DNA of 64,000 nucleotides from Candidatus Hydrogenedentota bacterium (GTDB lineage Bacteria > Hydrogenedentota > Hydrogenedentia > Hydrogenedentales > SLHB01). Both the position numbers and the translations under genes were made by a program. The notes under the pieces were generated by a model. It saw only the letters and a program-made list of their open reading frames with translations. It did not search any database and was not told the origin of the DNA. The stretch lies in NCBI GenBank assembly GCA_029552745.1, contig JAKPDK010000070.1:62001-126000 (forward strand). Reading direction: 5' to 3'. Below, piece after piece: positions 24,923 through 49,372 of this stretch; position 1 is the first letter of the stretch; every line of letters starts with the position of its first letter.

Positions 24923-26056
24923 ATGACTGACGTTCCGCTGGACATACCCGTATACTCCTACATAAAGCGGGAGCTCAAAAGCCAAATAGAAAACGGCGAG
25001 CTGCCGGAAGGGGCGCGGGTACCGTCTGAACTGGAGCTGGCTCGGCAGTATGGTGTCAGTCGAAATCCTACGCGGCAAGCCTTGCGGGATTTGGAGCTGG
25101 AAGGCTATATCGTACGGGTACCCGGTCGAGGGTCTTTTGTGGCGCCCCGTCAACAGCATCAGCGGGTGTTGAGCGTAAATGGGTGGAGGACGGTCGCGAT
25201 TGCGTGTCCAGAACTGGAGATTCATTACACGCGACTTGTGGTGCGGGGATTTCTTGAGGCAACTGCGGAACAGGGTGTGCATCCGATGGTGTATTTTCTG
25301 CGGCTAAGTAATGAGGCAGAGTTTGAATTCTTAGCCGATCTCCGAAACAGCGGCGTGGAAGGCATCGCTTTCTGGCTGCAGCACCCGGGCGAGCGCACCA
25401 TGGAGTTGTTGAAGAAGTTTCAACGTTCTCAGTTTCCCTTTGTTTTGATTGACCGCTACGTACGGGGTATGGATGTGGATTTTGTTGTGTCCGATAACGT
25501 AGACGCAACATTTCAACTGACGAACATGTTGCTTGCTCGAGGTCACCGGCGTATTGGCTTCATAACAACCGAGCTGAACAACACGGCGACGGAAGACCGC
25601 CTCGAAGGTTATAAAAAGGCGCTGGCTGCAGCCGGTTTGGCATACGAGCCCGGGGTCACGGCAATTTTTGGTAAAGCGGGCGAATCGGCGGGAATGCTGG
25701 TGAGTAAGGTGATGGCGCAGCGCGAACGCCCTACTGCCTTTGTTTGTGCCAATGACGGCGTGGCAGAAAAACTGATTGACAAGCTGAACGTATTGGGTTA
25801 CGAAGTGCCGGTTGATGTGGAGATTGCCGCGGTGGATGACAATGAATTCGCGGAAGCCTCTGGAGTACCGATGATTACCGCGTCGCAAGCGGGTTTTGAA
25901 ATGGGTAGAAAGAGCGCGGAGGTTTTGCTCAATCGGATAAATCGACCGGATTTTCCGAGGCAGCAGTATTTTTTAAAATCTACGGTTCGTTCGACTCTGG
26001 GCGAAGTCAAAAACTCTGTCAGTTTTGTGGAAACGTCCGTGGGTCATAAACCGTAG
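24923..26056 (+). CDS. Transcriptional regulator: GntR-type wHTH fused to LacI/PBP1-type sugar-binding domain (AraR-like architecture)
   Basis: IPVYSYIKRELKSQIENGELPEGARVPSELELARQYGVSRNPTRQALRDLELEGYIVRVPGRGSFV; then LacI-type ligand domain (LLARGHRRIGFI...PTAFVCANDGVAEKLI). Confidence 0.92.
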   Translation: MTDVPLDIPVYSYIKRELKSQIENGELPEGARVPSELELARQYGVSRNPTRQALRDLELEGYIVRVPGRGSFVAPRQQHQRVLSVNGWRTVAIACPELEIHYTRLVVRGFLEATAEQGVHPMVYFLRLSNEAEFEFLADLRNSGVEGIAFWLQHPGERTMELLKKFQRSQFPFVLIDRYVRGMDVDFVVSDNVDATFQLTNMLLARGHRRIGFITTELNNTATEDRLEGYKKALAAAGLAYEPGVTAIFGKAGESAGMLVSKVMAQRERPTAFVCANDGVAEKLIDKLNVLGYEVPVDVEIAAVDDNEFAEASGVPMITASQAGFEMGRKSAEVLLNRINRPDFPRQQYFLKSTVRSTLGEVKNSVSFVETSVGHKP

Positions 26057-26184: not shown

Positions 26185-27294
26185 ATGAAAAAGAAAGGGT
26201 TTACGCTAATTGAGCTGTTGGTGGTGATCGCGATCATCGCCATTCTGGCTGCGATCTTGTTGCCTGCGTTGGCTCGGGCACGGGAAGCGGCACGTCGTGC
26301 CAGCTGCCAGAACAATTTGAAACAATGGGGTCTTATCTTCAAGATGTTCAGCGGCGAACAGAAGAGCGGCCGTTTCCCGCAGTGGGCGAGTGTTGTCGGC
26401 GGCTTCAAGATTGACATGTTCGCTCCGGACATGGCAGAGATTTACCCCGAATACTGCACGGATGCCAAAATTACAGTCTGCCCGTCAGATTCCGGTACGG
26501 ACCAGCATGCTTTTGCGAGCACCTGGCCGCCTTTTGAGGCAGGAGAAAAAGACATCCAGTCGAAAATCAGCGCAGGCACAGCAACAAGCCTTTGCTTGAC
26601 CATGCATTACAATGTCGCCCGTTCCTATGTGTACGATCCGTATGCGTTGAAGAACGCTACGCAAGGCAAGATCACGGGCGATGCGGTGGAAAAGGGATGG
26701 CTTACTCCTGGTCTCGACTATACGCAATGGACAACCACATTGACGGCTGCGGACCTGGGCGCTGGCTGCCCGTATCTGACAACTATTGCGTGGTTCCCGA
26801 TCCCTGTTCGGATTGACTGGGAGAAACGCTTTAACATGGCGACGGACGGTACGCAACGCATATTTGAGGGCAGCGGTGATATTCGTACGGCTTTCCGCAG
26901 CACCAACCCGACAAGCACGCGTGTTATTGATGACGCCGGTGTTTACATTGGACCGACGATCTTCCGCATGAAGGAAGGTATTGAGCGCTTCATGATCACC
27001 GATATCAACAATCCGGCTTCCGCGAACATGGCGCAGAGCACGCTTCCGGTCATGTGGGACGGTTGGGGCAATCGGACGGACGTCGGTGGCGTCGAAGGAC
27101 AGAGTGTTGCGATGTTCAACCATATTCCGGGCGGCAGCAATGTTCTGTATATGGACGGTCACGTAGAATTCCTGCGTCTGAAATCCAAGTTCCCGGCGAA
27201 GGACGGTTCGGATGGCACGGATGGCGGCGTGAACAACGACGGTAAGAACTTCTCGAAGACGATGTCGAAGAGAATGATTGACGGCGGCATCTGA
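26185..27294 (+). CDS. Prepilin-type N-terminal cleavage/methylation protein with H-x9-DG motif (pseudopilin-like)
   Basis: [48 protein letters not shown]-terminal [17 protein letters not shown]. Confidence 0.95.
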
Positions 27295-38114: not shown

Positions 38115-39194
38115 ATGCCTAAGAGAAAACGTCCAACAATTAACGATGTGGCACGAGTGGCTGGCGTAAGTCGTCAAACCGTCTCTCGGTACATCAATAA
38201 TGCAGGTCCTGTTTCCAGGAAGGCGGCTGAACGTCTTCAGAAAGCCATTGAGAACTTGAGATATCACCCAAGTGCGTCGGGAAGAAACCTGCGGCGAAAA
38301 CGCTCCATGACGGTTGGGCTTGCCTTGTACAGTGCCAATGATTTGAGCACAGAACTTAGTGAATTGTATGCGTTGAAATTGAGCGGCGTTTTGGAAGTGC
38401 TCGGACCGCGAGGATATGCGCTCCAGGTGGTTGAAACCAACTTGTCCGCGGCGCAGCAAGGCAGGGGCACCTACTATCTGGATAAGGTGAGAGGCGGGGA
38501 ACTTGACGGGCTAATTATCAGTGACTTTCACCTGACGGCGGAAGAAATACGCCATCTTCACGAGATGCGTTTCCCTTTCGTTATGATTGACCGTCTCAGT
38601 GAGGAGTTTCCTGGGCGTTGTGCGATCACAGACGTCTACACGGAGGGTCTGCTCTTGACCAATGCCTTGTTGGAGAAAGGACATCGCAGATTGGCGTACT
38701 GTGGCTGGCCGCCTCATCGTGGACTTGCGTATCGGTTTTTGGAGGGGGTGAAGAGTGCCGTTTCTCGGTCTGCAAGCGGAGCAGTGTTGTTAGATGAGGT
38801 CTATCCTTTACCGGGCGACGTCTCGGCTACTTTAGACCGATTTAGTCGTCTGGTCAGCCGCGCAGATGGACCTACCGGGGTGATATGCAATGATGACTGG
38901 ACGACGGGGATGATAGCCCTGTTGGCGGAGCGTGGTGTGCCGTATTCGGACCAGTTTCAATTGGCGGGCGTGTCTTTACGACCGCATTATCTCGATGCGG
39001 CACGTGTAGTACTTGTCGCTACGCCGATGGACCGCGAACTTGGAATTGCCGGGGCGGAACTTCTACTCGATTTAATCTCCGGTAAGCCCGAACGGTCAGA
39101 GCCGGTAAGTGTGGGAGTGGCAAAATTTATTTCGCCGGTGTTTCCGTATCGAGTGCATTTTCGACGCGGGACGAAAGCTTCCACGTCAGTGTAA
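38115..39194 (+). CDS. LacI-family transcriptional regulator (ORF open from 38070)
   Basis: PTINDVARVAGVSRQTVSRYINNAGPVSRKAAERLQKAIENLRYHPSASGRNLRRKRSMTVGL. Confidence 0.95.
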   Translation: MPKRKRPTINDVARVAGVSRQTVSRYINNAGPVSRKAAERLQKAIENLRYHPSASGRNLRRKRSMTVGLALYSANDLSTELSELYALKLSGVLEVLGPRGYALQVVETNLSAAQQGRGTYYLDKVRGGELDGLIISDFHLTAEEIRHLHEMRFPFVMIDRLSEEFPGRCAITDVYTEGLLLTNALLEKGHRRLAYCGWPPHRGLAYRFLEGVKSAVSRSASGAVLLDEVYPLPGDVSATLDRFSRLVSRADGPTGVICNDDWTTGMIALLAERGVPYSDQFQLAGVSLRPHYLDAARVVLVATPMDRELGIAGAELLLDLISGKPERSEPVSVGVAKFISPVFPYRVHFRRGTKASTSV

Positions 39195-39302: not shown

Positions 39303-39332
39303 TTGTGATCGTTCACATTCTTTTGGTATAAT
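39303..39332 (+). promoter_or_regulatory. Promoter with embedded LacI-type operator TGTGATCGTTCACA (operator 39304-39317; -35 TTGTGA; -10 TATAAT 39327-39332)
   Basis: Near-palindrome TGTGAwCGwTCACA overlapping -35; 17-nt core identical to the site at 49356-49372. Confidence 0.8.
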
Positions 39333-39414
39333 CTAGCCATTGCGCTACTCGTGAGGAAAGGTTTACTAGCCACGACGTAACCGGAAACGGCTAAAACAAA
39401 AGCAAGGTTCGCAC

Positions 39415-41721
39415 ATGCTTAAGTTGGAAAACGAAAGTTTCCATTTAGGTTTTCATGCTGAAAACGGGGCGCTGTGTTGCGTTGAAAACTTGCTGACCAG
39501 TGACCAGTATCTAAAAGGTCCTTCTTCTCATCATATGCCTTTTCGAATTTATTCGGATCTGACAAAAGAGTTTGAAATCAATATCAACGACAAATTCCAG
39601 TTGGTATTTGAAGATCCGTTAATCATTACCAAGAACCACTTTTCTCCCGGTACTGCGTGTTTTTCTTCCGTACAATTGGAAAATGCCCTAGCACTTCAAT
39701 ACGTGATGAACGGGTTGATTGCTGGGGTCTATGTGGAGTTGGGTGACGGACCATGCGTTTCTAATTGGTATTTGAGGGTCACAAACACCGGAACAGTATC
39801 TCGGGACTTTCTGGTGAGTTTTCCCTATTTTAACGGGGTGGTTCTGGGTTCCGACACGGAGAATAACTTGGCAACCGCGATGGATATGGGGGGCTTGGTA
39901 GTACCCGCATGGGAACGTCCGGGTGGGGTCTTGGGGGAAAGTAACCAGTTTTCCATGCAATGGCATGCGGTTTGGGATCCCCACTGTAAGAGTGCAATGG
40001 GCTTGATTTTTCGCGACGCTGATGTCAAGCCTAAACGTCTGGTCTTGCGGAAGGAAGACGCTTCCATCGACTTACAATACTTTCCTCCGGTAAATCTTTC
40101 GCCTGGAGAGTCGGTTGATTTTCCTTCCTTTCACCTCTTGGTTTATGCGGGAGATTGGCGTCCTGCAGCGAGGGCGTACCGAGCGTGGTACCGGCAAGTC
40201 TATCCGCATGTCGAGCCACCGGAATGGTTTCGGTTATCTGATGGCAACGTGGGTGTGCATTTCAAAAAAAGGAGTGCGGAGACTCCACCGACATACTCAG
40301 GGGGTCAGTATGTGATGGGTAGTTTTGCGGAGCTTCCTGCGTTTCACCTGCGCCGTCCTGTCGATAATAGCGAATATGCTTTCTTCTGCGCCGGCTCGAT
40401 GTATCAGGATGCTACAGGTTTTAGTCCGCACACAGACGGGGAAAATATTATTCGAGAGGACTTAGGCGGAGCAGAAGGATTGCGTGCCGGTATTGCTGGG
40501 CTGCATCGTCTCGGTTTTCACGCGACGCTATATGTCGAAGGATACCTAATGCACAAGGACTGCGGTCTTGCGCGTGCGGGAAAAGGGGAGCGTTGGGCGG
40601 TAATGCATAAAGACGGGACTATTATCGGTCCCTATAGTGAACAAGGCTTTTATCACATGTGCCCCGGCTGCGAGGAGTGGCAGGACCATTTGGCGCAGAT
40701 GGTGAAGAGATTGCTTCGCGAAACGCATGCGGACGGCATAAGACTCGATTCTCTGGGTTTTTATTATTTGCCGTGTTATAACCCGGAACATCGTCATCGG
40801 GACCCCTTTGGTTACAACGAATGGATAAAGCAACTGCTCGCCAAAGTACGTCAAGCGGCTGTTGCGGTCAAGCCGGATGTTCTTCTTTTGACGGAAGGTC
40901 CGGCGGACTGGTTTGGACAGTGGTTTCACGGTGCTCTCACGGCTCGTTGCCCTCGTGAGCTTTCCCTAATGCGCATTGCCGTAGAGCCGTTTCGACCTTA
41001 TGTCTACGCATCTGGAGCGTTATGGGGGGCATTGTCTGGGTTTGCCGGTGGCGGCTGTGATTCTCCCGATATCACGCATATCGATTGGAATTGGGTTTGT
41101 GCACGTTACACGGCTCATTCTGCGCTGGTATGGGGAGACGTTGAGGATAAAGATCCGGAAGCATCAGACCCAGAAATAGTCACGCGTTGTTTCAAAGGAG
41201 ATGGGTATTGGGCATTGGTCGCGGCTAGACCGGCATGTCAGGAGCCAATTTGGCCTCGAGGAACGGGAATTTCAGAAAAACATAGATTGTATACCGTTAC
41301 GTTATCTGGGCTGGCGCCAGTGATTGAGAATGCAGTTCTTTGTGACGTTGAGAAACTGAATTGGTGTGCGCTCGACCTACAACGCAAGGGGAATGATCTG
41401 CAGCTACAACTCTCCTCGAACTGGGCGCTGGTAATTCTACGAGAGTTTTGCGGTCCGGGCATCGTCTGTTTTGACTCCTTGCCTGCATTGCACCCGGGAG
41501 AGTCCGTGATGATTAGTCCAAGGCTGTTGACGACGCTTCCTAGTCGTTTCCAATTGGAATTAGATGCCCCGGGTTTGCAGGTGAGGCGAAAGGATGCCCA
41601 GGGGATTTCGGAATTTAAACTTCATGTTCCTAGCGACGCCCTATCTGGACATTACAAGGTTGTACTAAAGGGCGAAGGCGTGTTGGGCACGAAGAGATTT
41701 CTCAGTGTTGATGCAGGGTAG
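39415..41721 (+). CDS. DUF6259-like glycoside-hydrolase-type protein
   Basis: N-terminal beta-sandwich; TIM-barrel motif THADGIRLDSLGFYY..KPDVLLLTEGPADWF. Confidence 0.7.
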   Translation: MLKLENESFHLGFHAENGALCCVENLLTSDQYLKGPSSHHMPFRIYSDLTKEFEININDKFQLVFEDPLIITKNHFSPGTACFSSVQLENALALQYVMNGLIAGVYVELGDGPCVSNWYLRVTNTGTVSRDFLVSFPYFNGVVLGSDTENNLATAMDMGGLVVPAWERPGGVLGESNQFSMQWHAVWDPHCKSAMGLIFRDADVKPKRLVLRKEDASIDLQYFPPVNLSPGESVDFPSFHLLVYAGDWRPAARAYRAWYRQVYPHVEPPEWFRLSDGNVGVHFKKRSAETPPTYSGGQYVMGSFAELPAFHLRRPVDNSEYAFFCAGSMYQDATGFSPHTDGENIIREDLGGAEGLRAGIAGLHRLGFHATLYVEGYLMHKDCGLARAGKGERWAVMHKDGTIIGPYSEQGFYHMCPGCEEWQDHLAQMVKRLLRETHADGIRLDSLGFYYLPCYNPEHRHRDPFGYNEWIKQLLAKVRQAAVAVKPDVLLLTEGPADWFGQWFHGALTARCPRELSLMRIAVEPFRPYVYASGALWGALSGFAGGGCDSPDITHIDWNWVCARYTAHSALVWGDVEDKDPEASDPEIVTRCFKGDGYWALVAARPACQEPIWPRGTGISEKHRLYTVTLSGLAPVIENAVLCDVEKLNWCALDLQRKGNDLQLQLSSNWALVILREFCGPGIVCFDSLPALHPGESVMISPRLLTTLPSRFQLELDAPGLQVRRKDAQGISEFKLHVPSDALSGHYKVVLKGEGVLGTKRFLSVDAG

Positions 41722-41758
41722 AGTAAATGGTGAAGAGAACAGGAGGATAATTCAATTC

Positions 41759-42520
41759 ATGACAGACGAGAGTGTCGTGGGTGTCATTCCGTGTCGATAT
41801 GGTTCTACGAGACTTCCTGGAAAGCCATTAAAGCTTATTCAGGGTAAGCCTATGATTCAGTGGGTATATGAGAGGGCATGTCAAGTTAATGTCATGCAGG
41901 AGGTTTATGTTGCAACGGATGATCCGAGAATCGTAGAGGTTTGTCGGAAATTTGGGGCAAGGGCGATCATGACCTCCCCAAATCATCGGAGCGGTACGGA
42001 CCGAATCGCAGAGGCAATTCGGCACATTCCGGCGGACATTATTGTCAACATCCAAGGTGATCAGCCGTTCTTTGATCCTGTGATGGTGGAAGAAGCCGTC
42101 AGACCTCTTCTGGAAGACCCCTCCCTGAAGATGACTACGTTAATGCATCCTATTACGCATCCGGAGAGTCTTCATGATCCGAGTGTAGTGAAAGTAGTAA
42201 CTGACCTTAAAGGCAATGCCTTATATTTCTCTCGCTCCCTTATACCTTTCCCGCGGGAATCCGTGGTTCATCAAGTCTATGAGCATGTGGGTCTTTATGT
42301 ATATCGTAGAGAGTTTTTGCTTGCGCTCACTCAATTGCCGCAGAGTGTTTTGGAACAAGTGGAGTCGCTGGAACAGCTTCGAGTTCTTGAGTACGGTTTT
42401 CCTCTTCGTGTAGTCCAAACAAAGACCCTTGATCATGAGTTTTCTGGGTTTAGTGTGGACACGCAACAGGACTTGGAGCGAGCGGAGCAGATGCTGACGG
42501 AACGAGGTATAAAAAGTTAG
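41759..42520 (+). CDS. kdsB: 3-deoxy-manno-octulosonate cytidylyltransferase (ORF open from 41705)
   Basis: GVIPCRYGSTRLPGKPL, YVATDDPRIVEVCRKFGA, VNIQGDQPFFDP; AGGAGG upstream. Confidence 0.96.
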   Translation: MTDESVVGVIPCRYGSTRLPGKPLKLIQGKPMIQWVYERACQVNVMQEVYVATDDPRIVEVCRKFGARAIMTSPNHRSGTDRIAEAIRHIPADIIVNIQGDQPFFDPVMVEEAVRPLLEDPSLKMTTLMHPITHPESLHDPSVVKVVTDLKGNALYFSRSLIPFPRESVVHQVYEHVGLYVYRREFLLALTQLPQSVLEQVESLEQLRVLEYGFPLRVVQTKTLDHEFSGFSVDTQQDLERAEQMLTERGIKS

Positions 42521-42544
42521 TTTTTCATATAGGAGCGCCAAATG

Positions 42545-43762
42545 ATGAGCCAATTTGATGCCGTGAAGTCCTTGGAGAGCCTTTTAGATTCTACTATGGT
42601 GGAGCGCGTACGGCAGGCCGCTGATGCTGTGGTTGCGGCAAAAGAGCGGGGCGGTAAGGTCGTTGTGGTAACGGGCAGTGGCCCGAACTTGCACGAGGGT
42701 GTCACCACGTTAATAGCGGAACTTATGCGGCTAGGGGTTATTGACGGTGTGACAACAAGTTCTGCCGTTGTCTCCCACGAAATGGGAGGAACACTAGACA
42801 AGGTGAAGCGGGTGGATGGTAGGTCAGTAGGAGTGGATCCTTTTTTCTTGCCGCGCGGGGGGGAATTTGAACTTACACTGACCGACTCGCTCGTGCTGCA
42901 AGAAGTGACCCAATACATGCCGGTGGATACAAAGTTGATGGAGCGGATGGAGAGGGCGGCGGGCAAGGTGATTATCAAGGCGGCGGGCAATTTGGGCTAT
43001 CCTGTCGGGCTTTGGCTGGAGCGACTGTCATGGGAAATCCTGACGTTGGCAAAGTCGCATGGCATGACTTTTGAAGAGGTGGTGGGGCTAGGCGCTGACG
43101 AGCGCACGATGATTGGTATCGCCGCGGCAAAGGGTTTGCCTGTGGTTGTCACGATTCCACAGTTGATAGGCGGTGGTATGGTAGGCTTATGTATCGGGGA
43201 TAGTGTTCCCATAACCGAACGGGCGGCGCGCCTTGCGCATTTGCTGGATAGCGCCGACGTCATCATCGAGTCGGCCGTGGTGCTCACCCAGGAGGTCCAC
43301 GACGGACCCTTTGAGCGCTACACGGGGCATGGTCTATGGAGTGCCTGGCAGGGACACTATACATATAGCCTCGAGGGTAAGAAGCTTGTGCGTATTGACC
43401 TCGACCCCAACTTGGAGAAGGTCTGTGAGGTCGAGCGTGAAAATGCCGCTGTTCAGAATGCCATTGCGGACGGTTTGCCCAAAACAAAACTCTTCGGGGT
43501 ACCGTTTCGTATGGAAATGTCGGGTTTTGCGCGACACGAAGGTAGCATTGCAGTCATAGGCGATATCGGCGTTGTGTGGCCTATCATGGTGGCGCGTATC
43601 GCCGAACGACTTGGGCTGGAATTGCGGTTCATGTCTTATCCGCAGCATACGGAGATGGGGAAGGCAATGAGAGAAATGATCGTACGAGAAGTTAGGCCAG
43701 TTAGTCGTCAGAAGATGCTGGAGCGACTGGCGTTACGGGGACGCAAGGAAGCTCGCAGTTGA
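42545..43762 (+). CDS. Conserved-looking protein of unrecognised family, Rossmann-like N-terminus (ORF open from 42542)
   Basis: VVVVTGSGPNLHEGVTTLIAEL; 406 aa, downstream of kdsB. Confidence 0.7.
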   Translation: MSQFDAVKSLESLLDSTMVERVRQAADAVVAAKERGGKVVVVTGSGPNLHEGVTTLIAELMRLGVIDGVTTSSAVVSHEMGGTLDKVKRVDGRSVGVDPFFLPRGGEFELTLTDSLVLQEVTQYMPVDTKLMERMERAAGKVIIKAAGNLGYPVGLWLERLSWEILTLAKSHGMTFEEVVGLGADERTMIGIAAAKGLPVVVTIPQLIGGGMVGLCIGDSVPITERAARLAHLLDSADVIIESAVVLTQEVHDGPFERYTGHGLWSAWQGHYTYSLEGKKLVRIDLDPNLEKVCEVERENAAVQNAIADGLPKTKLFGVPFRMEMSGFARHEGSIAVIGDIGVVWPIMVARIAERLGLELRFMSYPQHTEMGKAMREMIVREVRPVSRQKMLERLALRGRKEARS

Positions 43763-43908
43763 GCGTAGGATTTGTGGGTAGGTCGTGATCGCGTGCCAAT
43801 TGAACTACACGAGAAAGTAACTTCCTAGAGCGAGCGGTGCTCCGTGTTTTATCTGGTGAACATACGCAAGATCAGAACTAGATTGCACACCGTGAGAGGA
43901 CGAATAGA

Positions 43909-45489
43909 ATGGAACCTATAGACATTTTGGTCCTTGTCGTGTATTTCGTATCCATGTCGCTGACTGGCCTTTTTTTTGCACGTAGGGCAACGAGTACCGA
44001 AGGTTACTTTGTGGGGAACAGGGCCTATCCGGGGTGGTTGATAGGTTTCTCTTTGTTTGGGACGACCATAAGTTCGATCACATTTGTCGCGTACCCCGCA
44101 GATGCGTACAAAACTGCGTATCTTCGCTTACTCCTTTGTTTTACGCTCCCTCTTGGTGTATGGATAGCATCCCGCTACTTCGTTCCTTTTTTTCGTCGAG
44201 GAAAGATTACTTCGGCGTTCCAGTATCTTGAGAAACGGTTCAGTCCTACCACTCGGGTCTACGCAGCTAGCGTTTTTATCGTGGCGCAGTGCATACGACT
44301 GAGCCTGATTCAATTTCTTGTCGCCATGCTCATGCACGAAATTACGCACTGGGACGTAACCGTTTGTATCTTGTTGGGCGGTATTGTGACTGGGTTCTAC
44401 ACGATTATGGGAGGTATTGAGGCTGTTATTTGGACGGATTTTATCCAGTCCATTATTTTTACATTAGGGGGCATCTTGATTCTTTCTACTATTCTGATCA
44501 AACTTCCCGGCGGACTCAAGCAGATTATTGACGTGGGGATGGCGGACGGCAAGTTCATGTTTGGTGATCTCGACGTAGCGACAGGGCAATTGCGTCCCGC
44601 GCCTTTAGGATTTTCGTTGCGTGAGAAAACGGTGCTTATGCTGTTGATAGTAGGCCTTTTTCAGTGGTTAGCCGAGTATAGCAGCAACCAGGAAGTTATT
44701 CAGAAGTATTGCACCTCTAAGTCTGCCGATGAAGCTCGGAAAGCCATGTGGATTTGTTGTTGGTGCTCGTTGCCCACATGGTGCTACTTCATGTTTTTGG
44801 GAACTGGTTTGTATGTCTTTTTTAAGGTTTTTCCGGATCCCAAAGCCGCAGAAATGCTTACGGGGGCACGCAAGGCGGAGCAAATCCTGCCCTATTTCAT
44901 CATCAACTACATGCCGCACGGGTTTTCAGGAGTCGTCATTGCAGCTGTCCTTGCTGCCGCGATGTCCTCTATGTCATCTGCGATGAATTCCATATCTGCT
45001 GTCGCTGTGACCGACATCTATGGCCGTCATCTTGTCAAGAACAAAAGCGATCGACACTACGTTCTTGCCGCGAAATGGATTACATTGGCGAGTACCGTGG
45101 TCATGGTGATAGGGGCGTACATCTTGGTCAAGACGGACAGCAAAACCCTCCAACATTTGGCAACCGAATTTGCGTCAATAATTGCCGGGGGCGTGCTGGG
45201 GTTGTACATGTTGGGATTTTTAACCACGCGTGGAGATGGCCGTTCTGTGTTGGTGGGGATTTTGGCGGCCGTTGGATTTTCGGCGTTTATTTCCTGCGCG
45301 GGCTTGGGTTGGTTGCCGACTCGGCTGAATGAATGGGTCAATGAACATTTTGAGACGTACTATACCGGCGTCGTAGGAAATATCCTGATGTTTTTGTTGG
45401 GATTTCTTCTCACCTACCTGTTGCCCGAGCGTCCACGGGATTTAACCAATCTCACTGTTTGGACTCAAGACGGGTCCCCGCTCGATTAG
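43909..45489 (+). CDS. Sodium:solute symporter (SSS family)
   Basis: EGYFVGNRAYPGWLIGFSLFGTTISSITFVAYPADAY; AAAMSSMSSAMNSISAVAVTDIY; about 13 TMs. Confidence 0.92.
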   Translation: MEPIDILVLVVYFVSMSLTGLFFARRATSTEGYFVGNRAYPGWLIGFSLFGTTISSITFVAYPADAYKTAYLRLLLCFTLPLGVWIASRYFVPFFRRGKITSAFQYLEKRFSPTTRVYAASVFIVAQCIRLSLIQFLVAMLMHEITHWDVTVCILLGGIVTGFYTIMGGIEAVIWTDFIQSIIFTLGGILILSTILIKLPGGLKQIIDVGMADGKFMFGDLDVATGQLRPAPLGFSLREKTVLMLLIVGLFQWLAEYSSNQEVIQKYCTSKSADEARKAMWICCWCSLPTWCYFMFLGTGLYVFFKVFPDPKAAEMLTGARKAEQILPYFIINYMPHGFSGVVIAAVLAAAMSSMSSAMNSISAVAVTDIYGRHLVKNKSDRHYVLAAKWITLASTVVMVIGAYILVKTDSKTLQHLATEFASIIAGGVLGLYMLGFLTTRGDGRSVLVGILAAVGFSAFISCAGLGWLPTRLNEWVNEHFETYYTGVVGNILMFLLGFLLTYLLPERPRDLTNLTVWTQDGSPLD

Positions 45490-45574
45490 GCGTTTCGCAA
45501 GAAGTAGCAGTTATCATCATTGTGGACTGTTTTTCAAATGCTTCGTCTCGAAGTTAGAGCGTAATCCCTTTCGT

Positions 45575-47980
45575 TCAGGGAGAGCCAGACTGCGAGGGGA
45601 TGAGCCATATCTCTGCCACTTGGCAACCTCTCCCTTCTACGAGAAGCCATTCCAGGTCTAAGCTGCCTCCTGCAGTGCATGCCTTCGGGATGGGGAACTC
45701 CAACGGGTCAGGTTGCTCGGGTTGTGAGAGAGCTCCGTGGATTTCATATATACCGTTTGCCAGGAGCTTCATGGTGGGGCGAAATCGTCCGGTATATACC
45801 ACCCGTAACGTGTACAAGTTGTCTGGTTGCAACCCATCGAAATGGACTTTTAACGGCGTACCATAAAGTGTTTGTGCCTGGTCAAGCCAAGAGCGGCGCC
45901 AGTTCTCTCGTCCAACTATTTCAATAAACTCGTTTTGGGGAGAGTGAACATACCCAGGATCGTCCTTCCAAGAAATTGCTTGGACTAAGTGGGGTTGTTT
46001 GGAGGGATTGCCCAAGTCGTCGTAATAACCTCCCTCTCCAGGATTTTCCCATTCCAAGATCTGTTTGATGGCTTGTGCTTTTTGTGATTCTTTGGCCATT
46101 GCCAGGATTTTTTTGAATTGATTCTCCATCCAAGGGCTATCTGTAAGCGGCGTGTCGAGAGCGTCTAGTACCGCGCCACGTTCCCAATTTGCCGCACCGT
46201 ATTTAGAAACACTCATCTGAATACCAATATTGTCAAAAAGAGACTTACCAAGTCCTTCTATTTTCTCTCGGAATTGCTGGATTTCTGGCGAGAGGGACGT
46301 GTTTTTCAAGATTTCCCTCGCCCGAGCAATGGCGACATCTACGCTAACGATGTTGGCCTGTTTCAACTGTTCCAGGGCTTCCTGTTCTTTTTGGGTTTCT
46401 GACAAGAGACGATGATAAATGTAGGCATCGTAATATGCGCGAAATAACGCCATTTGAAGGCGCCAGTGGGTTGGATTCATTGCATGAGGTAATTTTTCTT
46501 CTATGTGACGCCACCGCGCTAGTGTCTTTTCAATCTGCCCATTGTGGCTCAACGGCCCTTTCCAGTTACTTTCCAGTTCTTTCAGTCCGGCAGCCATCGG
46601 TTCTTCAACTTCTTCTCCGCCAAAAATACGGCTGTAGTCTTTTAGAATCGTATCGAGTTTTGCTTCGGGATCCCAACCCTTTTCAGCCCAGATAACTTTG
46701 TTTACATCATCATTGACACCGTCCGAGTAACCAATAAATCCGGCTGTGTCTGGCGAGGTAAAATGAAAGATATATTCCATCGCTTTGGGTCTGGGATTTA
46801 TGGGTTCTCTTCCCAGCGTGAACGCAAAAGCCCGGTCCCAGTCCGGAACAGGATACTGGCACTCGATGCAATGGGTTATGTCTACATATTGGATCAACGG
46901 GTACTGTTCGGGAACTGCTTTGCGCATATCTTTGAGGCTCATTTTCACCCAGGTTCCAAACACGAGACCTGTGAGCCATGCCGGTCGTTCTGTTTGAAGA
47001 AACTCAAATAGGTAGTTGTTCCATTCTTGGGGCATATCTTCGTTGGATAGCCACACGTCAGCCGAAGGATGAGATTCGTGTAATACGGTAGCCAATCTTT
47101 GAACCCAAGGGAGTAACACACGTGGATGAGCATCGCCGGGATCGCCCCCAGGCACGAATATGGCATCAATCCTCGGACAGCTGCGGAACAAATCTCCACA
47201 TAAACTCAAAGTTTCTTCGGTGGTTGATTCTGCAAATGCCCTGTTTCCGGGAGGCAACCATATCCAGACATTGAGTCCATAAGCATTCAGTAATTCGGCA
47301 AGTTTGGGTGTTCTTTCCCACACGGTTTCGGTCATGTGGGGACCTTCTTTGTCCATATGATCCAGTTCACACACGAGTTGAATCGTGTTTACACCGAAAA
47401 CCGCCAATTCACGTATGTATTTTTCGAATTGTTCCATATTCCAGGCGTCATATGTATTTGACTTGTTGCGGTATCCCAGTTCGTGACCTCGAATGGGATA
47501 GTGCGGGGCTGAACTCAGCGTGAAAGGTAAATCTAATGAGACGTTACCTGGGCTCATGTGAAGGAGACGAAACAACTTACCAGCGCCAAAAAGAACACCA
47601 CGTTCATCTCTACCACAAATCACCACCACAGGAGTCCCGTTTGATGTCCTATCCGCCCAAATGGCATACGCCTCAGCTTTTTCTGGAACAGAGATGTCGG
47701 AAGGTATCTGGGGCAGGTATTCTGGCATCTCGCCTACCTTCCCAAGGACAATCCGCGGAATGTCTTGGGCATTGACTTCCGTCTGACAAGGGAAAAACAG
47801 GCCGGTGCGTTCTTGGATCATGTCCTGCAATAGATGTGCTGCCTTCATAATGGGAGTTGACGTCTCTTTCTTTGTGAAAATAATACCGGCGCGAATGCTT
47901 GCTGTATCTCCAACTGCGTGGTAAGGGAAAAACAGCAGCGTCAGTAGCAGGACAAGTACTTTGGACCGGGACATGAACAA
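45575..47980 (-). CDS. Secreted glycosidase-like protein (GH20/GH67-type N-terminal domain plus TIM-barrel-like region)
   Basis: Signal peptide; IMKAAHLLQDMIQERTG..GRDERGVLFGAGKLFRLL; PIRGHELGYRNKSNTYDAWNMEQFEKYIRELAVFGVNTIQLV. Confidence 0.65.
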   Translation of the reverse strand: MFMSRSKVLVLLLTLLFFPYHAVGDTASIRAGIIFTKKETSTPIMKAAHLLQDMIQERTGLFFPCQTEVNAQDIPRIVLGKVGEMPEYLPQIPSDISVPEKAEAYAIWADRTSNGTPVVVICGRDERGVLFGAGKLFRLLHMSPGNVSLDLPFTLSSAPHYPIRGHELGYRNKSNTYDAWNMEQFEKYIRELAVFGVNTIQLVCELDHMDKEGPHMTETVWERTPKLAELLNAYGLNVWIWLPPGNRAFAESTTEETLSLCGDLFRSCPRIDAIFVPGGDPGDAHPRVLLPWVQRLATVLHESHPSADVWLSNEDMPQEWNNYLFEFLQTERPAWLTGLVFGTWVKMSLKDMRKAVPEQYPLIQYVDITHCIECQYPVPDWDRAFAFTLGREPINPRPKAMEYIFHFTSPDTAGFIGYSDGVNDDVNKVIWAEKGWDPEAKLDTILKDYSRIFGGEEVEEPMAAGLKELESNWKGPLSHNGQIEKTLARWRHIEEKLPHAMNPTHWRLQMALFRAYYDAYIYHRLLSETQKEQEALEQLKQANIVSVDVAIARAREILKNTSLSPEIQQFREKIEGLGKSLFDNIGIQMSVSKYGAANWERGAVLDALDTPLTDSPWMENQFKKILAMAKESQKAQAIKQILEWENPGEGGYYDDLGNPSKQPHLVQAISWKDDPGYVHSPQNEFIEIVGRENWRRSWLDQAQTLYGTPLKVHFDGLQPDNLYTLRVVYTGRFRPTMKLLANGIYEIHGALSQPEQPDPLEFPIPKACTAGGSLDLEWLLVEGRGCQVAEIWLIPSQSGSP

Positions 47981-48054
47981 CTCCTCCCCTGTGATGAGTT
48001 CAGTTTCTCGATGAATACATAGTTCAACGTGTTTATTCGTACCCGGAAGATGGG

Positions 48055-48087
48055 AAGGGCGCCCTCTCTTTGTTACGGAGCGCCCTT
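48055..48087. repeat. Inverted repeat AAGGGCGC...GCGCCCTT between pseudopilin and glycosidase genes; possible terminator or processing hairpin
   Basis: Perfect 8-bp arms, 17-nt loop, no T-tract on either side. Confidence 0.5.
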
Positions 48088-48145
48088 ACCACAAAAGGTC
48101 GAACACGAAGCAAGGATCTTTACCATAACTGACCGACCATTACGG

Positions 48146-49173
48146 TCATCTTGCCCATAGGAACAGCGCGGTCATGGGATCTGGATACCGCTTGAATTCA
48201 ACATGTCCATCCATGTACAAGCAGTTGGAACCACCCGGAATGTGAGACGCTTTCCATTTCTCTAAAATGTCAGGCGTATCGCCCGAGCTGGTCATGTTTT
48301 GATCCCACATGACTGGCAAAGTGCTTTGGGCTTTTGCTGCTCCTGAAGGATTATTGATGTCCGTAATCAAGAATCTCTCAATGCCCTCTTTGAACCGATA
48401 TACCGTCGTCGACCCAGCTGTACCTGTTATGGTCAGTGAATCGGTGATTGGCGTGGTACTGCCGATAGGCCAATAGAAGCAGATTCTTGTTCGGTACGTT
48501 TCAATGCGGTTCTGGATGCGGCTTCTCAAGTCCGATTCAGTGAACTGGTTCCAGTTAAAGTTATTGTTTAACTTAACTTTCACCTGATTCGGAGTAAACG
48601 TGCCGTTGAGCGGTCCACGATGGCCACAGTTGTAGTCCGATGCAATCTGCATGGTCGCGTATTCGTCAACTGTGGTCGCTATGTACCCGTAATATTCATA
48701 GGACATGTCATCCTCAAACCATACGGGGTCAAGCGTACCACCCGAACTCGGAGGTACTCCTGGAACGCCGACACCCGGTACCGAATAGAACTTCCAACCG
48801 TTTGGCCCAATATAATCTTCTTTGTTGACGTTCTGGCGGGATGGACACCACCAAATGTTGATATCCGTCAGATACTCCGGATAGATGGCTTGGCCAGAGG
48901 GAACAGCCCAAATATCATCGACTGCTCCCACCGTATCCCACGTAGCCGGTACGTTTGGTCCATTCAGACCAATGGCGGCGGGTGGAAAGAGATCCTTGTT
49001 TTCACTGGAAAACATCTTGAAAATCAGACCGAACTGCTTGAGATTATTCTGGCAGCTCGATCTTCTTGCTGCTTCGCGGGCGCGAGCCAACGCCGGCACC
49101 AAAATCGCGGCTAGAATGGCAATAATCGCAATAACCACGAGCAGTTCGATCAAGGTGAAACCTTTATTTTCAT
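48146..49173 (-). CDS. Second prepilin-type H-x9-DG protein (pseudopilin-like); apparent 1-nt frameshift just after the expected ATG (ORF open from 49345 in the body frame)
   Basis: [55 protein letters not shown] and [26 protein letters not shown] precedes ATGAAAATAAAGG. Confidence 0.88.
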
Positions 49174-49309
49174 CGCTACTTCCCTCCCTTTTAAAGGTTG
49201 TTTGGTTTGCCGATTCTCTACGCGCACACAGCACATTAATTAGCTGTTTTATGTTTTTCCTGCCGTGAACCTCTTTTCTTTCGTCGCTTTCGCTACAAGC
49301 CCTGAAGAA

Positions 49310-49323
49310 TGTGAACGTTACCA
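49310..49323 (-). promoter_or_regulatory. Second, degenerate LacI-type operator (TGGTAACGTTCACA)
   Basis: 12/14 match to TGTGAwCGwTCACA; 48 bp centre-to-centre from the main operator, just downstream of the predicted start site. Confidence 0.5.
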
Positions 49324-49343
49324 CTCTTCTGTTAACTGCACTC

Positions 49344-49372
49344 ATTATAACAAAAAATGTGAACGATCACAA
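49344..49372 (-). promoter_or_regulatory. Promoter of the second pseudopilin gene with LacI-type operator (49358-49371) overlapping -35
   Basis: Minus strand TTGTGA-N17-TATAAT; operator core identical to 39303-39319. Confidence 0.8.

Follow-up and report, generated by a model that had tools for sequence, protein, structure and literature searches.

Two promoters with one operator

The window analyzed here, a stretch of 64,000 nucleotides of Candidatus Hydrogenedentota DNA, raises the question of whether one LacI-type regulator controls both a glycosidase-like gene and the gene of an H-x9-DG/DUF1559 pseudopilin, a type of protein for which no established role was found. An earlier note had proposed an identical operator in both promoters. 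The window sequence confirms this, with TTGTGATCGTTCACATT on the plus strand at 39303-39319 and its reverse complement at 49356-49372. The promoter features are listed below.

39303..39319, plus strand: operator 1, TTGTGATCGTTCACATT, over the -35 box of the DUF6259 promoter; same position in genomes G002 and G019; PWM score of 25.1 bits
39327..39332, plus strand: -10 box TATAAT of the DUF6259 promoter; spacer from TTGTGA of 18 bp; read from the sequence
49310..49323, minus strand: partial second operator in the pilin leader, 2 mismatches; third-best PWM match in the window, 13.0 bits
49344..49349, minus strand: -10 box TATAAT of the pilin promoter; spacer from TTGTGA of 17 bp; read from the sequence
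49356..49372, minus strand: operator 2, over the -35 box of the pilin promoter; same place in G003 and G020 and, with 1 mismatch, in G002; PWM score of 25.1 bits

As the earlier note had described, the operator overlaps a TTGTGA -35 box at both promoters (39303-39308 for DUF6259 and, on the minus strand, 49372-49367 for the pilin), and TATAAT follows 17 to 18 bp on. Most sites in relatives likewise have TTGTGA, 17 bp, and then TATGGT, TATGCT, TATACT, TAAAAT, or TAGAAT, the exceptions being the weak sites and the G002 pilin site, which has 1 mismatch and lacks a clear -10 box. An operator over the -35 box is the layout of a repressor that would exclude RNA polymerase.

The core of the operator, TGTGAWCGWTCACA (TGTGAwCGwTCACA), is a near-perfect palindrome with even spacing and the central CG noted previously, and the G003 version, TTGTGAACGTTCACAA, is a perfect 16-bp palindrome. 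A scan of the 4,355,843-base genome (4.36 Mb), which had been suggested as a check, located exact copies of the core at 39304 and 49358 and nowhere else, which places the exact motif in these two promoters only. About 0.07 exact copies per genome are expected by chance (our own arithmetic with uniform bases), and the reversed pattern, which served as a control, had no exact match in any genome scanned. With up to 2 mismatches, the core was found at 32 places in the genome versus 13 for the reversed pattern. Of these relaxed sites, 27 were classified, and 19 fell inside called genes, including the only 1-mismatch site and also the partial site at 49310, which truly lies in the pilin leader and was miscalled from an artefactual ORF start. 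The exact sites are thus conspicuous, and most of the relaxed sites are background. The 1-mismatch site (C109:83611) was dropped as a regulon member because it lies inside a gene, and a site 171 bp before another pilin gene (C120:77443) is not palindromic and is unproven as an operator. Under a PWM built on ten footprinted sites, which include both window operators themselves, these two operators rank first in the window, and the score of the partial site at 49310 is within the range of the best matches in shuffled sequence.

Genes of the two predicted transcription units

The genes behind the two promoters are as follows.

39415..41721, plus strand: DUF6259 glycosidase-like gene; PF19773, E value of 2e-22; weak GH66 similarity
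41705..42520, plus strand: kdsB-like cytidylyltransferase of the DUF6259 unit; order kept in G002
42542..43762, plus strand: conserved protein of the DUF6259 unit without a Pfam match; order kept in G002, with 72% identity
43909..45489, plus strand: sodium:solute symporter, possible further member of the unit; PF00474
45575..47980, minus strand: GH67-like enzyme, secreted, encoded by the second gene in the pilin unit; profile-based match to GH67 structures, E value of 1e-08; also behind the pilin in G002, G003, and G020
48146..49162, minus strand: H-x9-DG pseudopilin, from GFTLIELL to stop; PF07963, PF07596, and TIGR04294 (21.7 bits, cut-off of 19); start codon uncertain

The DUF6259 gene starts at 39415, as had been reported. 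The protein at 42542-43762 shows only weak similarity, to TIGR00300 (ornithine cyclodeaminase). In G002, the symporter gene is encoded on the opposite strand, with a weak site in front of it. The presence of kdsB suggested KDO as a substrate, but the gene is not diagnostic because the genome has a second kdsB; this other copy, at C102:401475, scores better, and the one at 41705-42520 sits in the unit predicted to be under LacI control.

The prepilin N terminus, the DUF1559 domain, and the H-X9-DG C terminus of the pseudopilin all score over their cut-offs (PF07963, PF07596, and TIGR04294, respectively). Its H-x9-DG identity in the earlier note therefore holds, whereas the start proposed there, 49173, is not in the reading frame of GFTLIELL. 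The interval 48146-49173, with 1028 nt, does not form an open frame; a good ribosome-binding site precedes an ATG at 49173, the frame of which yields MKIKVSP and then a stop. GFTLIELL is one base off this frame (window positions 49160-49175), and the corresponding ATG is in frame in G003, G020, and G002. An assembly indel, a poorer start codon upstream, and a damaged gene are possible explanations. An AlphaFold model of the pilin, built on three sequences, had a mean pLDDT of 32 and was unusable.

The second gene of the pilin unit is named GH67-like only because its profile match is limited to the N-terminal part of GH67 alpha-glucuronidases and its GH67N score (17.4 bits) is under the cut-off of 24.3, so that the full GH67 domain set does not score over cut-off. 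Its family, which has eight members in the source genome and is represented in 51 of the 68 genomes of the order, has no Pfam model of its own and looks like an unnamed glycosidase family. The predicted second target of the regulator is thus the unit of pilin and GH67-like gene and not the pilin alone, which would tie the two promoters more closely than the earlier note supposed.

Conservation of the operator in relatives

A search of 59 other genomes for orthologues of the window's LacI protein (E value of ≤1e-30) found them in only three, G002 and G019 (genus g3) and G003 (genus g4), with 61 to 65% identity; in each of these, the motif lies beside lacI. Sites stand before lacI in G002, G019, and G003; before the DUF6259 gene in the source genome, G002, and G019; and before the pilin and GH67-like genes in the source genome, G002, G003, and G020. 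The cluster of G002 reads site, lacI, site, DUF6259, kdsB, homologue of the gene at 42542, symporter (opposite strand), site, pilin, and GH67-like gene. In G003, lacI and the pilin gene are divergent, with an exact site for each, and the GH67-like gene follows; in G020, an exact site precedes the pilin gene and then the GH67-like gene. No lacI was found in G020, a genome that is 81% complete and whose contig continues for only about 85 bases past the site, and the contig of G019 breaks off shortly after the site downstream of lacI. G004, G055, and G056 also have exact sites, which adjoin no cluster gene and were rejected; that of G004 lies within a 567-amino-acid ORF.

The phylogenetic footprinting called for by the earlier note hence found the motif kept at orthologous promoters, across genera g1, g3, and g4, and traveling with the LacI orthologue, as judged from only four other genomes that bear on the regulon, two of them close. 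The scatter of two-mismatch sites, mostly inside genes, would suit a match between the promoters that arose by chance or by recent copying of promoter DNA. However, the DNA flanking the operators differs between the two window promoters, and other genera also have exact sites at the orthologous promoters, so that this explanation is already contradicted by the footprinting and is scarcely credible.

LacI regulator and predicted regulon

The regulator gene lies where the earlier note had placed it, just before operator 1.

38115..39194, plus strand: LacI-family regulator, predicted repressor; PF00356 (59.5 bits) and PF13377 (30.8 bits), each above its cut-off; orthologues in G002, G019, and G003

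The protein combines a LacI helix-turn-helix (PF00356) with a sugar-binding sensor domain (PF13377). Its recognition helix, SRQTVSRY, is identical in all four orthologues, and those of three aligned paralogues of the source genome are TPSTVSRI, SKAAVSYV, and SAKTVSRV. The helix of Escherichia coli LacI is SYQTVSRV, which reads TTGTGAGC half-sites; because QTVSR pairs with such half-sites there, it fits the TTGTGA-C half-site here. A candidate site before the lacI gene of the source genome (38047) has 3 mismatches, which makes autoregulation doubtful in this genome.

The operator could be real and yet be read by a LacI paralogue or another dimeric helix-turn-helix protein, with the neighboring LacI acting elsewhere, since the source genome has four further LacI genes and G020 keeps the site with no lacI detected. 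We consider this unlikely, as the site adjoins lacI in every genome with a LacI orthologue, the aligned paralogues have different recognition helices, and the half-site matches the QTVSR helix. Control of both promoters by the local LacI protein, as first proposed, is instead well supported by the exact sites, the footprinting, and the invariant helix.

Very probably, then, the locus is a local LacI repressor regulon that joins glycan enzymes and a pseudopilin through TTGTGAwCGwTCACAA operators. The evidence, all of it read from sequence, is the sites, their conservation, their overlap with promoters, and their association with the LacI orthologue. LacI (38115-39194) would bind operators over the -35 boxes of at least two transcription units, one predicted to comprise DUF6259, kdsB, and the gene at 42542, perhaps with the symporter, and the other the pseudopilin and the GH67-like gene; in relatives, it would also cover the promoter of its own gene. 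When no inducer is present, LacI would keep RNA polymerase off, and a sugar freed from the target glycan may release both promoters, with joint production of glycan enzymes and a dedicated pseudopilin as the expected result. We read the locus as a local LacI regulon that is apparently ordinary apart from one unusual member, the substrate-linked pseudopilin. The coupling of glycan degradation to this pseudopilin, which the earlier note had suggested, stands as far as the shared operator is concerned; the pseudopilin may help to secrete the enzymes or to capture the target glycan. An operator common to glycan enzymes and one pseudopilin gives that pseudopilin an expression condition and a likely task, which makes the question of H-x9-DG pilin function directly testable.

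Pseudopilins and sugar regulators in the family

A search of nine genomes from the family returned 34 LacI genes that passed the cut-off and 346 matches to DUF1559, with 14 to 66 H-x9-DG/DUF1559 pseudopilins per genome. A pilin lies within 2 kb of 13 of the 34 LacI genes (0.91 expected; Poisson probability of ~2e-11) and within 8 kb of 22 (3.7 expected; ~7e-11), where the null is random placing only, the loci are partly interdependent, rounded genome sizes were used, and pilins were found by motif near LacI and by profile genome-wide. In the source genome, the gene immediately upstream of the pilin encodes a sugar-type regulator in 8 of 23 cases (3 LacI, 2 GntR-PBP, and 3 AraC), and genes for a GH42-like enzyme, a rhamnosidase, a sugar ABC transporter, and PfkB kinases are among those on the other side of regulator-linked pilins. 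Judged from these gene neighborhoods, the link between LacI and pilins looks general.

The window contains a second pair of this kind, in which an H-x9-DG-type pilin (26185-27294) directly follows a regulator with a GntR helix-turn-helix and a LacI-type sensor domain (24923-26056). When the other LacI-pilin loci were scanned for central-CG palindromes, convincing ones were found only in G009:C39 and G002:C108, the latter exact in G002 only. The palindrome of G009, of the TTGACACCGGTGTCAA type, lies between divergent lacI and pseudopilin genes. TTGACACCGGTGTCAA and its one-mismatch forms occur near LacI genes in G009, G014, and G037 (L190:1501-1516; also L191 and L186), and those in G014 and G037 are not near pilins.

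About half of the 23 pilins in the source genome have no sugar regulator or glycan gene adjoining, which would agree with a pseudopilin that is coregulated only through its convenient position and has no part in glycan handling. This reading is possible but the less probable one, since four genomes from three genera share the order of operator, pilin, and enzyme, with the rest of the cluster rearranged, and since LacI genes lie near such pilins far more often than under random placing. If the pseudopilin is instead substrate linked, the wider pairing would predict substrates for other pseudopilins. More tentatively, many Hydrogenedentota glycan loci might have their own H-x9-DG pseudopilin, induced by the LacI, GntR-PBP, or AraC protein of the locus, as an exchangeable, substrate-specific subunit of a pilus or type II secretion system-like fiber that captures the glycan or secretes enzymes for it, which would make it a functional counterpart of SusD in Bacteroidota.

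Comparison with known systems

The literature search, whose coverage was incomplete, returned nothing relevant on a LacI-pseudopilin link. The regulator resembles E. coli LacI acting on the lac operator in the QTVSR of its recognition helix and in the TTGTGA-C half-sites; it differs in the first contact residue (Arg in place of Tyr), in the even rather than odd spacing, and in its targets. Planctomycetes have proteins of the same DUF1559/PF07596 family as the pseudopilin, also in many copies per genome, which have been described as solute binding and stress responsive, and the accessible part of that report describes no link to a sugar regulator (PMC2754498). The MUL2 locus of Akkermansiaceae, a reported precedent for glycan use that involves pilin-like proteins, is similar, by description, in that a pilin-like protein, MUL2A, is tied to glycan attachment and uptake. 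However, according to the accessible part of the account, it belongs to another phylum, has another pilin type and a PilM partner, and is described with no LacI control (PMC13174399).

The closest likeness is to the local sugar regulons of the LacI family. Operators in this family are mostly even palindromes with a central CG (PMC4052901; Ravcheev et al., 2014), and nearly 90% of its regulators are local and 72% autoregulated (PMC4052901). The window regulon shares with them a LacI helix-turn-helix with a periplasmic-binding-type sensor, an even central-CG palindrome, few and neighboring targets, glycan genes, and, as predicted from sites in relatives, autoregulation. That survey uses neither the term pilin nor the term secretion, and the regulon described here differs from those of PMC4052901 in that its predicted targets include a pseudopilin, which heads a unit with a secreted enzyme.
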